Part shown: one piece after another, positions 24,531 through 32,150 of the stretch
Layout of the letters: every line of letters starts with the position of its first letter
Position numbering within the stretch: the stretch's first letter is position 1
Assembly (NCBI RefSeq): GCF_015234305.1
Contig: NZ_JADGMI010000006.1
Coordinates: 62,001 to 126,000, forward strand
Direction: 5' to 3'
Length of the DNA stretch: 64,000 bases
From: Superficieibacter sp. 1612_C1
GTDB taxonomy: Bacteria; Pseudomonadota; Gammaproteobacteria; Enterobacterales; Enterobacteriaceae
Position numbers and translations under genes: made by a program
The notes under the pieces: model-generated
What the model was told of the DNA's origin: nothing
The model's input: the letters and a program-made list of their open reading frames with translations, nothing else
The model's database searches: none

Positions 24531-24545
24531 TTTAAGGTGAGCGTA

Positions 24546-26084
24546 ATGCAACAGCAAAAACCGCTGGAGGGCGCGCAACTGGTCATCATGACCATCGCGC
24601 TGTCGCTGGCGACCTTCATGCAGGTGCTGGACTCAACCATTGCTAACGTCGCGATCCCCACTATCGCCGGGAACCTTGGCTCGTCACTGAGCCAGGGAAC
24701 GTGGGTGATTACCTCCTTCGGCGTGGCGAATGCGATCTCCATTCCGATCACCGGCTGGCTGGCAAAACGCGTCGGGGAAGTAAAACTGTTCCTGTGGTCC
24801 ACGGTGGCGTTTGCGATTGCCTCCTGGGCCTGCGGCGTCTCCAGCAGCCTGACGATGCTGATTTTCTTCCGCGTCATTCAGGGGATTGTGGCCGGGCCGC
24901 TGATCCCGCTGTCGCAAAGTCTGCTGCTGAGTAACTACCCGCCCGCCAAACGCTCCATCGCGCTGGCGCTGTGGTCGATGACGGTGATCGTCGCGCCGAT
25001 TTGCGGGCCGATCCTCGGGGGCTATATCAGCGACAACTACCACTGGGGCTGGATCTTCTTCATCAACGTGCCGATCGGCATTCTGGTGGTGCTGCTGACC
25101 CTGCAATCGCTGCGCGGACGCGAGACCCGCACCGAGCAACGGCGAATTGATGGCGTCGGGCTGGGGCTGCTGGTGCTCGGGATTGGCAGTCTGCAAATCA
25201 TGCTTGACCGGGGTAAAGAGCTGGACTGGTTCGCGTCCAGTGAAATTATCGTGCTGACGGTGGTCGCCGTGGTGTCGATTGCCTTCCTGATCGTCTGGGA
25301 GTTGACCGACGATAACCCGATTGTCGATCTGTCGTTGTTTAAGTCGCGCAACTTTACCATCGGCTGCCTGTGTATCAGTCTGGCCTATATGCTCTACTTC
25401 GGCGCGATTGTCCTGTTGCCGCAGCTATTGCAGGAGGTCTACGGCTATACCGCCACCTGGGCCGGTCTGGCTTCGGCTCCCGTCGGGGTGATCCCGGTAC
25501 TCCTGTCGCCGATTATCGGCCGCTTTGCACATAAACTGGATATGCGCCGTCTGGTGACGTTCAGCTTTATCATGTATGCGGTCTGCTTCTACTGGCGTGC
25601 GTATACCTTCGAACCCGGCATGGATTTCGGTGCCTCGGCGTGGCCGCAGTTTATCCAGGGCTTTGCCGTCGCCTGCTTCTTTATGCCGCTGACCACGATT
25701 ACGCTTTCCGGCCTGCCGCCGGAGCGTCTGGCCGCCGCATCGAGTCTGTCGAACTTTACGCGAACCCTTGCCGGGTCGATTGGCACCTCAATCACCACAA
25801 CCCTGTGGACCAACCGCGAGTCGTTGCATCATGCGCAGCTCACCGAGTCGGTTAATCCGTATAATCCCGAGGCCCAGCAGATGTACGATCAGCTTCAGGG
25901 ACTGGGTATGACGCAGCAGCAGGCGTCCGGCTGGCTGGCGCAGCAAATTACCAATCAGGGGTTAATTATTTCCGCCAACGAGATCTTCTGGATTTCGGCA
26001 GGGATATTTATTCTTCTGCTCGGGCTGGTCTGGTTTGCCAGGCCGCCGTTTGGTGCAGGCGGTGGTGGGGGTGGAGCCCACTAA
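24546..26084 (+). CDS. emrB: Multidrug efflux MFS pump EmrB (DHA2, 14 helices)
   Basis: A 512-residue protein. The DHA2 family motifs are present: FMQVLDSTIANVAIPTIAGNLG in helix 1, GWLAKRVGEVK in the 2-3 loop, and motif C APICGPILGG in helix 5. The C-terminus is the glycine-rich GGGGGGAH tail of EmrB. It exports hydrophobic uncouplers and nalidixic acid with EmrA and TolC. ATG at 24546 is chosen over a GTG nine bases upstream because AAGG is well placed and it gives the E. coli length. The stop is four bases before the palindrome-flanked element at 26089. Confidence 0.96.
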   Translation: MQQQKPLEGAQLVIMTIALSLATFMQVLDSTIANVAIPTIAGNLGSSLSQGTWVITSFGVANAISIPITGWLAKRVGEVKLFLWSTVAFAIASWACGVSSSLTMLIFFRVIQGIVAGPLIPLSQSLLLSNYPPAKRSIALALWSMTVIVAPICGPILGGYISDNYHWGWIFFINVPIGILVVLLTLQSLRGRETRTEQRRIDGVGLGLLVLGIGSLQIMLDRGKELDWFASSEIIVLTVVAVVSIAFLIVWELTDDNPIVDLSLFKSRNFTIGCLCISLAYMLYFGAIVLLPQLLQEVYGYTATWAGLASAPVGVIPVLLSPIIGRFAHKLDMRRLVTFSFIMYAVCFYWRAYTFEPGMDFGASAWPQFIQGFAVACFFMPLTTITLSGLPPERLAAASSLSNFTRTLAGSIGTSITTTLWTNRESLHHAQLTESVNPYNPEAQQMYDQLQGLGMTQQQASGWLAQQITNQGLIISANEIFWISAGIFILLLGLVWFARPPFGAGGGGGGAH

Positions 26085-26088
26085 ATAT

Positions 26089-26247
26089 AATGGGATCTGC
26101 GGATCCCATTCAGACCGCTGAAAAAGTGGGTTGTCAGGGGAAACACCGGGATTGGGGTCCCGGAGGGAGGCCCAACCCGGTGGTCGCCCCGTGTTCCACG
26201 GACGGTTTATCATCAACCCCAATGGGATCTGCGGATCCCATTTTTTT
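26089..26247 (+). ncRNA. Candidate structured RNA/element bounded by two identical 22-bp palindromes
   Basis: Two identical 22-bp palindromes (arms AATGGGATC and GATCCCATT, loop TGCG) occupy 26089-26110 and 26221-26242. The second is followed by seven T's and is a convincing terminator; the first is not. The 110 bases between can fold strongly. CACCGGG(A)TTGGG (26144-26156) pairs with CCCAACCCGGTG (26171-26182), 12 pairs with one bulged A, capped by TCCC-GGA-GGGA. GGGTTG (128-133) can pair with CAACCC (214-219), and CCGTG-TTC-CACGG forms a small hairpin at 26189-26201. It lies between emrB and an RNA-repair operon. It could be a stable RNA, a MITE-like insert, or a duplicated emrB terminator; I cannot decide from one sequence. 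Confidence 0.4.
26221..26247 (+). terminator. Rho-independent terminator after emrB/candidate RNA
   Basis: Nine-pair stem with TGCG loop followed directly by TTTTTTT. It would end transcripts from emrB or from the 26111-26220 element. Confidence 0.85.
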
Positions 26248-26445
26248 GCAATCACTTTTTAACCCGCGTATTATCTCCCCGCCCCGCTCTTTCCGTTCAC
26301 TTTTCAACCGGTGCTGAGCCATCCGCTCGGTCGTTTTTCCACTGATTGCCCTCCCGCCTGGCCCGATTAACCGCCATGCCGGGGATCGCCACGCTGATTT
26401 TCCTCGCGCTTTCAGCTCAACTAAAAAACCGAATAATGGATTATC
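26248..26445 (+). promoter_or_regulatory. Leader region of the RNA-repair operon
   Basis: 198 bp without a gene. CTGAGC (26314-26319) pairs with GCTCGG (26325-26330) and is followed by TCGTTTTT, a terminator- or attenuator-like hairpin ahead of the ligase gene. I see no convincing sigma-70 or sigma-54 promoter and only a weak ribosome site (GGATTATC) before the ATG at 26446. Confidence 0.35.
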
Positions 26446-27153
26446 ATGAATACCCAACGAAAATACGGGAGAACCTGGCACTATCCTTTCTCCCCCGGCA
26501 CCACCAGCGAAGATCGCATTAACGCTCACTACTGGCAGGATTTGCAGGCGATCGCTTCCCTGGTGCATACCGAAAAACTGGACGGCGAGAATAATTGCCT
26601 CAATCGTCACGGCGTTTTCGCCCGTTCGCACGCCGCGCCGACGGACTCCGCCTGGACGCATAAAATCCGCCAGCGCTGGCAGTTGCTGAAGCACGATCTG
26701 GGCGATCTGGAGCTATTTGGCGAAAATCTGTATGCCGTGCATTCCATTGAATATCACCAGCTTGAGCAGGACTTTTACCTGTTTGCCGTGCGCTGTCATG
26801 AGACATGGTTAAGCTGGGAAGAGGTGAAGTTCTACGCCGCGCTGTTTGATTTCCCCTGCGTACCGGAAATCACCATTGACCCGCCGGGCAACAGTGAGCC
26901 AGCATGGCGGCAACGCTTTCTGACGCATACCGATAGCCGCGGCGCATTCGCGCCGTTTGATGTCCATACCGGCCTGCCCTGTACGGTGGAAGGTATCGTC
27001 AGCCGCAACGCTGACGCCTTCCCGGTGGCGGATTTTGCCCACAACGTTTTTAAATACGTGCGGAAAAACCATGTCAAAACTGACCAGCACTGGAAACGCC
27101 ACTGGCGACGTGCGCGAATGGCATGGGAGTTTCAACCAGGAGAAAAAGCATGA
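26446..27153 (+). CDS. Compact ATP-dependent RNA ligase (Rnl2-like nucleotidyltransferase core)
   Basis: A 235-residue protein with all core motifs of covalent nucleotidyltransferases. Motif I is TEKLDGENN with the AMP-accepting Lys44. Then come motif Ia GVFARSH (about 56-62), motif [16 protein letters not shown] (88-100), IIIa FYLFAVRC (110-117), motif IV VEGIVSR (181-187, Glu182) and motif [10 protein letters not shown] (201-209). EKxDGEN and EGIV-R favour the RNA ligase branch (Rnl2/REL1/Rnl5-like) over DNA ligases. There is no accessory domain beyond the core and a short basic tail. It would seal 3'-OH/5'-phosphate RNA nicks. Its stop overlaps the start of the HD-kinase gene (ATGA), so the two are coupled. 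Not present at this locus in E. coli. Confidence 0.85.
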
Positions 27154-28265
27154 TCTGGACGATGAGCCAGACGCAAAGCTGGCCTGACCTTCGCCAACAA
27201 TTCAGTTGGGTGGACGAGATGCACAACGTGCCGCAGGACGCGCATCATCATGCGGAAGGTAATGTTGGCATTCATACGGAAATGGTGCTTGATGCGCTGC
27301 GTGCGCAAGCCAGCTATCAGGCGCTGAAGCCTCAGCAGCAGGCGCTGTTATGGGCCGCTGCGCTGCTGCACGATGTTGAAAAACGCAGCACCACGCGTAT
27401 TGATGAAGAGGGACGCATCTCCTCTCCTGGTCACGCGCGCAAAGGGGAACTGACTGCCAGAGAAATTCTCTTCCGTGATATTCCCACGCCGTTTGTGCTG
27501 CGTGAGCAGATTGCCTCGCTGGTACGCCTGCATGGCCTTCCGCTATGGCTGCTTGAGCGCCCTGCCCCCGAACGGTTACTGCTTAGCGCAGCGATGCGGG
27601 TTGATACCCGGCTGCTGGCAATACTGGCCCGCGCCGATGTCGAAGGTCGGGAGTGCGCCGATAAAAACGTGATTCTGGATCGCATCGCGTTATTTGAACT
27701 GTTTTGTCAGGAGCAACAGTGCTGGGGTCGGGAACGTCCATTCCCTTCCTCCGCAAGCCGCTGGCACTATCTGACGCACCCGGACAGCGCGCCGGGTTTC
27801 GAGCCGTGGATTGAGCAGCCTTTCGAAGTGATTTTGCTCAGCGCCCTGCCGGGGATGGGCAAAGATCGCTATATCGCGGCGCACTGCCACGCTATGCCGG
27901 TCATCAGCCTTGATGATATTCGCCGTCGCCTCGGCGTGACGCCGGAAAACCGGGCGGCAACGGGGCGTATCGTGCAGCAGGCAAAAGAAGAGGCGCGGGT
28001 ATTGCTGCGGCAAAAAACGCCGTTTGTCTGGAATGCCACGAACATCACCCGCCAGCTACGCACGCAGTTAGTCTCGCTTTTTACTGCCTATGGCGCGGAG
28101 GTCAAAATTGTCTATCTGGAGGTGCCGTATCAGCAGTGGAAGCAGCAGAACAGGAACCGACAGCATGCGGTGCCGGAGACGGTATTACAGCGGATGTTGA
28201 CGAAGCTGGAGGTGCCGCAGCCCGATGAGGCGCAGCGCGTGGAGTATCGGGTTACCGACCCGTAA
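27150..28265 (+). CDS. HD phosphohydrolase - polynucleotide kinase fusion (RNA end-healing enzyme)
   Basis: A 371-residue two-domain protein. The N-terminal HD domain has His42 ([10 protein letters not shown]), His74-Asp75 (ALLHDVEKR), His95 (SPGHARKG), His128 (VRLHGLP) and Asp152/Asp163. The C-terminal domain (from about 225) is a P-loop kinase: [13 protein letters not shown] (Lys238), then [12 protein letters not shown] (Asp255-Asp256, Arg258), as in T4-Pnk-like kinases, and a later TNITRQLR segment. The order matches bacterial HD-Pnk (characterised in Runella slithyformis), which removes 2',3'-cyclic phosphate ends and phosphorylates 5'-OH ends. The P-loop has GKDR where Ser/Thr is usual. 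Start at 27150 follows AGGAG and overlaps the ligase stop; upstream ATG 27123 is less likely. Confidence 0.82.
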
Positions 28266-28960: not shown

Positions 28961-29036
28961 GAAAGACGCGCATTTGTTATCATCATCCCTGATTTCAGAG
29001 ATGTAAATTTTGGCCACAGTGATGTGGCCTTTTTCT
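28961..29036 (+). ncRNA. micA: MicA small RNA
   Basis: The 5' end GAAAGACGCGCATTTGTTAT is the well-known MicA seed that pairs with ompA mRNA. It is followed by the TCATCATCCCTGA.TTCAGAGATG stem-loop and a terminator hairpin (GGCCACAGTGATGTGGCC, then TTTTTCTTTT). The position between luxS and gshA is as in E. coli. It is an Hfq-dependent, envelope-stress-induced RNA that lowers porin synthesis and, being divergent from luxS, can overlap the luxS 5' leader. Confidence 0.95.
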
Positions 29037-31429: not shown

Positions 31430-31506
31430 TGGTGCATCCAGGAGGATTCGAACCTCCGACCGCTCGGTTCGTAGCCGAGTACTCTATCCAGCTGAGCTAT
31501 GGATGC
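31430..31506 (-). tRNA. argQ: tRNA-Arg(ACG), copy 1
   Basis: 77 bases including encoded CCA. Acceptor GCATCCA pairs with the 3' strand; anticodon loop reads CTACGAA with anticodon ACG (inosine-modified); T-loop GGTTCGAATCC. It corresponds to the argQ-argZ-argY-argV cluster of E. coli, on the same strand; the individual name is by position only. Confidence 0.97.
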
Positions 31507-31569
31507 ATTGGGATAACTATTTTACTGCTGATACCTGTACCGCGTAACGCTGCACCAGATAATAGATGG

Positions 31570-31638
31570 TGCATCCGGGAGGATTACTCGGCTGCGCCTC
31601 GCCCTACGGGCCGTTGCTGTCGCAACGTTATCCTCCCT
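31570..31638 (-). other. tRNA-Arg 3'-end remnant with inverted repeat
   Basis: At 31570-31587 the last 18 bases of a tRNA-Arg gene recur (TGGTGCATCCGGGAGGAT), then the sequence departs from tRNA. It continues as a GC-rich element containing CGTTGC-TGTC-GCAACG (about 31612-31627) and closes with ATCCTCCC, which is the reverse complement of GGGAGGAT. So it is a hairpin-forming unit built on a truncated tRNA 3' end, lying between two intact tRNA-Arg genes at equal spacing. Confidence 0.7.
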
Positions 31639-31701
31639 GGTGCCTGCGATAAGTCCGCAGAGGACAGGTAACAGCGTTCTGGCTGTTAACAGGGAGCAAA
31701 A

Positions 31702-31778
31702 TGGTGCATCCGGGAGGATTCGAACCTCCGACCGCTCGGTTCGTAGCCGAGTACTCTATCCAGCTGAGCTACGGATGC
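31702..31778 (-). tRNA. argZ: tRNA-Arg(ACG), copy 2
   Basis: 77 bases with encoded CCA, anticodon ACG, acceptor GCATCCG. It differs from copies 1, 3 and 4 by one compensated acceptor pair (G-C in place of A-T). Name by position. Confidence 0.97.
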
Positions 31779-31838
31779 ATCGGGATTACTGCTTTACTGC
31801 TGATACCTGTACCGCGTAACGCCGTACCAGGTAAGAGA

Positions 31839-31915
31839 TGGTGCATCCAGGAGGATTCGAACCTCCGACCGCTCGGTTCGTAGCCGAGTACTCTATCCAG
31901 CTGAGCTATGGATGC
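31839..31915 (-). tRNA. argY: tRNA-Arg(ACG), copy 3
   Basis: 77 bases with encoded CCA, anticodon ACG, same sequence as copy 1. The spacer to copy 2 repeats most of the spacer between copy 1 and the remnant (GATACCTGTACCGCGTAACGC), a sign of tandem duplication. Name by position. Confidence 0.97.
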
Positions 31916-31977
31916 ATCAGAATTACTACTTTACTACAGATTCAATGTTACTCAACCTGCCGTAACACTGATGAAGA

Positions 31978-32054
31978 TGGTGCATCCAGGAGGATTCGAA
32001 CCTCCGACCGCTCGGTTCGTAGCCGAGTACTCTATCCAGCTGAGCTATGGATGC
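31978..32054 (-). tRNA. argV: tRNA-Arg(ACG), copy 4
   Basis: 77 bases with encoded CCA, anticodon ACG. It lies three bases from serV and is probably cotranscribed with it. Name by position. Confidence 0.97.
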
Positions 32055-32057
32055 AAA

Positions 32058-32150
32058 TGGCGGTGAGGCGGGGATTCGAACCCCGGATGCAGCTTTTGAC
32101 CGCATACTCCCTTAGCAGGGGAGCGCCTTCAGCCTCTCGGCCACCTCACC
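32058..32150 (-). tRNA. serV: tRNA-Ser(GCT)
   Basis: 93-base class II tRNA with a long variable arm and encoded CCA. The anticodon loop CTGCTAA gives anticodon GCT for AGC/AGU codons; it is identical or nearly so to E. coli serV. First tRNA of the serV-argVYZQ transcript. Confidence 0.97.

Follow-up and report, generated by a model that had tools for sequence, protein, structure and literature searches.

Behind emrB in Superficieibacter sp. 1612_C1 two identical hairpins stand with 110 bp between them. These 110 bp are very probably a non-autonomous transposable element that was mobilised in trans by a transposase of the IS1182 family and that inserted into the rho-independent terminator of emrB, with duplication of the terminator hairpin. 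It is best read as working like an IS1182-mobilised MITE, YPAL-like and with an unusual hairpin as cargo. Read in this way, what had looked like a puzzling RNA bounded by palindromes becomes a clear example of terminator-targeted transposition. It also carries a caution: a structured segment lying between identical hairpins behind a gene can be the product of target duplication and not an RNA gene. Positions given below are those of the window, that is, the whole 64,000-nucleotide stretch of DNA that was analysed.

The emrB terminator and its duplication

The stop codon of emrB (at 26084) is followed in turn by the left hairpin, the 110 bases, the right hairpin and a T run (Table 1). Each hairpin is the palindrome AATGGGATCTGCGGATCCCATT, with 9-bp arms and a 4-nt loop. 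A sequence-only reading had noted two identical 22-bp palindromes with starts 132 bp apart, enclosing 110 bp, and a T tract on the + strand beside the right palindrome only, and all of this is borne out. The same reading had proposed that the palindromes might be the terminal inverted repeats of an element. They are instead the duplicated target, the terminator of emrB, and the true terminal repeats lie just inside them. The consensus of these ends in the family of copies described below, TTCAGACCGCTGACAAAG ... GGTTTGTCATCAACCTCA, sits directly inside the duplicated hairpins. As inverted repeats they are imperfect, with 11/17 matching letters in the consensus and a poor 9/17 between the two ends of the window copy.

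Table 1. Features of the emrB terminator region (positions in the window)
Feature	Position	Strand	Basis
emrB, gene whose terminator is the target	24537..26084	+	NCBIfam EmrB, 1045 bits (cut-off 925)
First (left) hairpin of the 22-bp target-site duplication, the emrB terminator hairpin minus its T tract	26089..26110	+	identical to 26221-26242; single at the empty site of G002 (L141)
110-bp miniature element with YPAL-like ends and without a transposase gene of its own	26111..26220	+	23 matches in own genome; copies aligned
Left terminal repeat, CAGACCGCTGAAAAAG	26111..26126	+	17/18 letters equal to family consensus, counting two preceding T
54-nt hairpin core, made up of a foot (4 pairs), a stem (12 pairs, one A bulged) and a cap (4 pairs)	26137..26190	+	83.6 bits with model R1, which was built from an alignment containing this copy; covariation
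Right terminal repeat, GGTTTATCATCAACCCC	26204..26220	+	16/18 letters equal to family consensus, counting the shared A at 26221
Second (right) hairpin of the target-site duplication; together with the T run up to 26247 it is presumed to be the terminator now at work	26221..26242	+	terminator-like site in scan; empty-site comparison

The DNA between the hairpins is a dispersed repeat, which takes the observation beyond chance. With 26085-26250 as query, 23 matches are found in the window's own genome (5.05 Mb in 17 contigs), the window copy being counted; a shorter query gives 22 and a model of the hairpin 20, and the congener G002 has 17 matches to the element. The other 22 matches in the window's own genome cover all or part of the 110-base interior; two of them go past it, one by 15 letters into the region of the left hairpin and the other by 4 letters at each end. 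Clear copies have the same hairpin on both sides, and the sequence of that hairpin is specific to the locus (for example, AACGGCGCAGAAATGCGCCGTT, GGGGGCGGCTTTCGCCCCC and AGAAGCCGCCTGTAAAGGGCGGCTTTTTC). Since the hairpin varies from locus to locus, the palindromes are part of the target rather than of the element.

The duplication can be examined in two ways. Forty copies in two genomes were taken for a comparison of left and right flanks, 33 of them passing a filter on core score, with 1056 mismatched flank pairs as the reference. The flank repeat reaches or exceeds the 99th percentile of the mismatched pairs in 12/33 copies, and four of the 33, the window copy among them, lie above the largest mismatched pair. 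A significant duplication is absent from the remaining 21 usable copies, which may reflect decay with age. The second comparison is with empty sites: the upstream flanks of ten copies, picked from the clearer of the 23, were compared with three congeners. At all ten loci at least one congener has a single locus-specific hairpin and no element. The emrB site of G002 reads ...GAATGGGATCTGCGGATCCCATTTTTTTTGCAATC..., with a single hairpin and the insert absent; the emrB hairpin of the window is not present in G001. One locus (L013) lacks the right hairpin in the window's own genome; the element is present at this site in G002 and absent from it in G003. The single hairpins at empty sites establish insertion with target duplication, of 22 bp in the window. 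The suggestion of duplication, mobility and a MITE-like unit in the sequence-only reading is thus upheld by the repeat family, the duplicated target and the empty sites.

Double terminators exist, and two terminators could in principle come from a local tandem duplication, or from selection for a double terminator, with the repeat between them there by coincidence. We give this next to no credence: the same layout recurs at other copies, each with a locus-specific hairpin of its own, and the hairpins at empty sites are single at 10/10 loci tested.

Ten example duplications, some of them represented by the left copy only, are 19 to 25 bp long and form 7 to 10 pairs along their full length, as is expected if both feet of the hairpin are cut. 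In the proposed mechanism, an IS1182-family transposase acting in trans would recognise the imperfect terminal inverted repeats of the element and would cleave at both feet of the terminator hairpin. Joining and repair would then duplicate the whole hairpin, the emrB-side copy losing the T tract and the far-side copy keeping it. Transcription of emrB would probably run through the element and stop at the second copy, which, we propose, would make the insertion nearly harmless. This would be a safe-harbour mode of insertion, in which a terminator is the target and is regenerated as the insertion is made.

Shared ends and the likely mover

The ends of the element are ends of a known kind. A 168-nt RU-2/YPAL sequence of Yersinia (YPAL standing for Yersinia palindromic sequence) is printed in Table 1b of PMC2759123, and its ends, TTCAGACTGCTGACAAAC ... 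ACTTTGTCAATAACCTCA, agree with our consensus at 16/18 letters on the left and 14/18 on the right. According to the available text of PMC2229807, YPAL target duplications measure 3-26 bp and lie at dyad symmetries or adjoin them. The window element and YPAL/RU-2 as printed there are therefore alike in being short, in having ends of like kind in the same order, in a duplication that falls within 3-26 bp and in a target that lies in a dyad symmetry or adjoins one. They differ in length, ~168 bp (167-168) in the printed YPAL sequences as against 110 bp, and in their interiors, the printed YPAL interior being unrelated to the core (their local alignment is equalled by 495/500 shuffles). Because length and interior differ, the window element is not YPAL itself. 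ERIC (127 bp) is likewise a short intergenic miniature element of enterobacteria, but in the available text of PMC2759123 and PMC2229807 it has TA ends and a TA target duplication.

A second family with the same ends occurs within the genus. Its members are ~175 bp long and stand behind terminator hairpins, and their interior is a REP pair. These REP-pair (BIME) elements (L058, L064 and L145) share with the window element the ends, the kind of target and the duplicated hairpin, and differ from it in length and in having two REP sequences where it has the 54-nt core. One of them, L145, occupies the emrB terminator of G003. Another, L064, has matches in 16/5426 E. coli genomes, none of them over more than 80% of its length. 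Further members of the REP-pair family with the same ends are L072, L074 and L075. The exact left-end word is found in 52/198 sampled genomes of the family (44/154 genera), its backward control in two among the matches listed. Short YPAL-ended elements with other interiors were also seen in other genera, each standing immediately behind a hairpin (L172, L173, L167-L169, L170, L182 and L183).

The left-end word also leads to full insertion sequences. Four of 20 further loci that have it run into a transposase gene (L164 to L166 and L177); at least three of these are broken or ended by contig ends, and related plasmid copies carry an IS1182 family annotation. Three intact relatives have ends common to the element and to YPAL, together with duplicated hairpins. 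Two are on plasmids (L185 and L186, with intact DDE transposases that score 489.8 and 486.7 bits against NF033551, cut-off 270) and one is chromosomal (L188, intact, 496.6 bits). The consensus ends of the element agree with theirs at 16 to 17/18 letters on the left (17/18 for both L186 and L188) and at 13 to 15/18 on the right. All three have terminator hairpins duplicated on both sides, 20 to 24 bp long and paired end to end; the exact flank repeat of L186 reaches at least 26, and L188 has a third copy of its hairpin ~165 bp further on (hairpins at 1383, 3006 and 3171). The likeness to the window element thus takes in the ends, the site directly behind a terminator hairpin and the duplication of the whole hairpin. 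Unlike it, these insertion sequences are ~1.6 kb long, have a transposase gene and a diverged right end, and had no hairpin core that we could find. (Of 12 loci with IS1182, REP-pair or other YPAL-ended elements, none matches the core model.) Two Salmonella plasmid loci are less regular: L184 has unrelated hairpins on its two sides, and the hairpins of L187 (near 2180-2200 and in the right flank) differ by an inverted loop.

The best described IS1182 relative with terminator-hairpin targets is IS1272, itself of the IS1182 family. According to the available text of PMC4923244, IS1272 / TnSha1 of Staphylococcus go to hairpins, many of them terminators, without preference for primary sequence; IS1272 inserts bluntly into the terminator hairpin and deletes part of it, with no duplication. 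What they share with the window element, as far as that text goes, is IS1182-family mobility into hairpins; the difference is that the hairpin is partly deleted there and duplicated here.

The mover of the window copy would, on these likenesses, be an IS1182 transposase. The right end, less IS1182-like than the left, counts against an IS1182 origin, as do the copies in which no significant duplication is seen, the irregular hairpins of L184 and L187, the third hairpin copy of L188, the partial deletion reported for IS1272 and the poor inverted repeats of the window copy. No IS1182 transposase scores above cut-off in the four genomes of the genus (G000 to G003), and none is found at E 1e-20 in G000, G001 and G002. 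The window's own genome has five weak matches below cut-off, so the mover may be absent today or may have been missed. G003 retains the broken remains of an IS1182 element, which have YPAL-type ends and lie next to terminator hairpins (L218, G003:C11 near 289681-290076). The left-end word is present in 9/13 genomes with an IS1182 transposase and in 43/185 without (Fisher p ~0.001, on the assumption that the two 198-genome samples are identical), an association that is partly circular since the insertion sequence itself carries the word. In the literature searched there is no report that joins YPAL with IS1182, and none was found on terminator duplication in Enterobacter. The available text of PMC2759123 and PMC2229807 names no transposase for YPAL, and that of a 2024 review of prokaryotic MITEs (PMC10969869) mentions neither YPAL nor IS1182.

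The 54-nt hairpin core

A 12-pair stem with a bulged A and a capped inner helix, already drawn in the sequence-only reading, is predicted by folding, is the best-conserved part of the repeat family, and covaries. When the core (26137-26190) is made into a covariance model, it matches, under strict filters, 41/392 genomes of the family, in 19/154 genera. Among 229 genomes drawn from the class, the window's own is the sole match. With a 24-base core pattern, matches lie in three stretches from named genomes, of Atlantibacter and of two Kluyvera species; the viral contigs, from which records close to the window genome may be missing, have none. Among 60 distinct cores, 95.5% of cells are paired as against 45-63% in slid controls, the alignment being model-fitted and leaning toward pairing; with that same alignment, 11/20 pairs have two-sided changes, in 99 cells as against 23.0 in shuffles. 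The covariation indicates that pairing has been kept in the lineages that spread.

The core is found under at least two kinds of ends. At L083, L085, L087, L089 and L092 it lies between the inverted ends TAACACCGTT/AACGGTGTTA, also by terminator-like palindromes, and at L094, in another genus, it is inverted inside YPAL-type ends and adjoins a palindrome. Tandem arrays of cores, with a spacing of 104 to 160 bp, occur in Kluyvera and other genera (L078:6432-6703, L038:1427-1778, L081, L091, L097 and L098). Neither the element nor cores from other genera had a match in collections of E. coli, plasmids and phages, from which records close to the window genome may be missing. An identification of the core with boxC of E. 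coli is not borne out either, there being no E. coli match. The presence of this module under other ends in many enterobacterial genera makes it cargo, or an aid to spreading, and not an RNA specific to emrB.

A hairpin repeat that forms tandem arrays in several genera, with a sister family in which the same ends enclose a REP pair, brings to mind palindromic repeats of the REP kind, dispersed by a RAYT/Y1 transposase, the duplication of the terminator being a by-product. To our knowledge, Y1 transposases make no target duplication. In addition, the outer ends common to both families resemble ends of the IS1182 type, and in other genera the core lies under different ends. We therefore regard movement by a RAYT as highly improbable and retain mobilisation by an IS1182-family transposase.

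A wider reading, to which we incline with some reserve, is that IS1182-type transposases drive a modular set of enterobacterial miniature elements (YPAL, the REP-pair elements and the hairpin-core elements) in which ends are shared and interiors swapped, and which seek out terminators and duplicate them, every insertion leaving the host with a fresh working terminator. The 54-nt hairpin would then be a REP-like module that spreads independently and is carried, across 19 genera or more, by transposon ends of different kinds. If this is true, a transposase is supplied for YPAL. The ends themselves already tie the long-known YPAL miniature elements to a transposase family.

The small-RNA question and the neighbourhood

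The hairpin repeat is widespread and has no Rfam family. The rival view, that the segment is a structured small RNA with a gene of its own or a structured 3' UTR element under selection for some function at emrB or in RNA repair, has several things to recommend it: the 54-nt hairpin covaries strongly across genera, the whole region folds very stably (z -5.8, as against -1.8 for the interior alone), and genes for an RNA ligase and for an HD/kinase protein adjoin. We nevertheless consider it very unlikely, for reasons that lie in the conservation of the core at fixed sites, in the pairing statistics and in the state of the site in congeners.

Eleven pairs of orthologous filled sites were tried, of which nine were counted, L021 and L027 being dropped for poor upstream alignment. 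The core agrees in 438/552 columns (gaps taken as differences), whereas the flanks agree at 93.2% upstream and 91.9% downstream. In 4/9 pairs it equals or surpasses both ends in conservation, which would suit an RNA, and in 5/9 it falls below both. Over the nine sites it is thus no better kept than ends or flanks, which we take as the absence of consistent selection on the core at fixed sites; a local RNA role is for that reason unlikely. G-U pairs, at 37 cells to 22 for A-C in the core pairs, are not in excess by position (14 vs 14), and these wobble counts favour neither RNA nor DNA as the level at which pairing matters. No Rfam match at the gathering score lies in the element; seven sub-threshold matches near it (P35 and 5S among the weak ones, best E 0.3) are read as chance. 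In a consensus scan both promoter-like matches fall at 26245-26274, downstream of the element, whose interior has none. On the conservation, Rfam and promoter results the proposal of an independent small RNA gene in the sequence-only reading is not sustained. Its further proposal, an RNA excised at both hairpins, likewise found no support.

The same reading had drawn two long-range pairings that would cross as a pseudoknot. They can be drawn, but covariation lends them no clear support. AGACCG/CGGTTT is paired in 95.6% of cells in 19 copies, a value equalled by 83/500 shuffles, and its covariation score is reached by 40/500; it shares bases with the terminal repeats, and their conservation can account for its pairing. 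GGGTTG/CAACCC is paired in 73.7% of cells in the 19 copies (reached by 57/500 shuffles). For the pairing of the terminal repeats with each other the corresponding value is 94.7% (8/500), and for the left subterminal hairpin it is 88.0% (239/500).

Downstream of the element, at 26446-28265, lie an RNA ligase gene (PF09414) and then a gene whose product combines an HD domain with a kinase-like AAA_33 domain; the two resemble an RNA-repair pair, and the element had been linked to them. The ligase gene is in the same place in G002, where the site is empty, and in G003, where the REP-pair element stands; no such gene was seen in the stretch from G001. With the ligase gene present in both congeners and this element in neither, the neighbourhood is older than the insertion and the link to RNA repair is incidental, which also weighs against a small RNA with a role there. 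Unrelated sequence between the palindromes in relatives had been named in advance as evidence against a structured element, and the outcome is divided: G002 has nothing there, and G003 has a different element with ends of the same kind.

Further along, the window has MicA sRNA on the + strand (28961-29033) and, at 31430-32150, a tRNA cluster in which four genes are for tRNA-Arg(ACG) and one is for tRNA-Ser(GCT).
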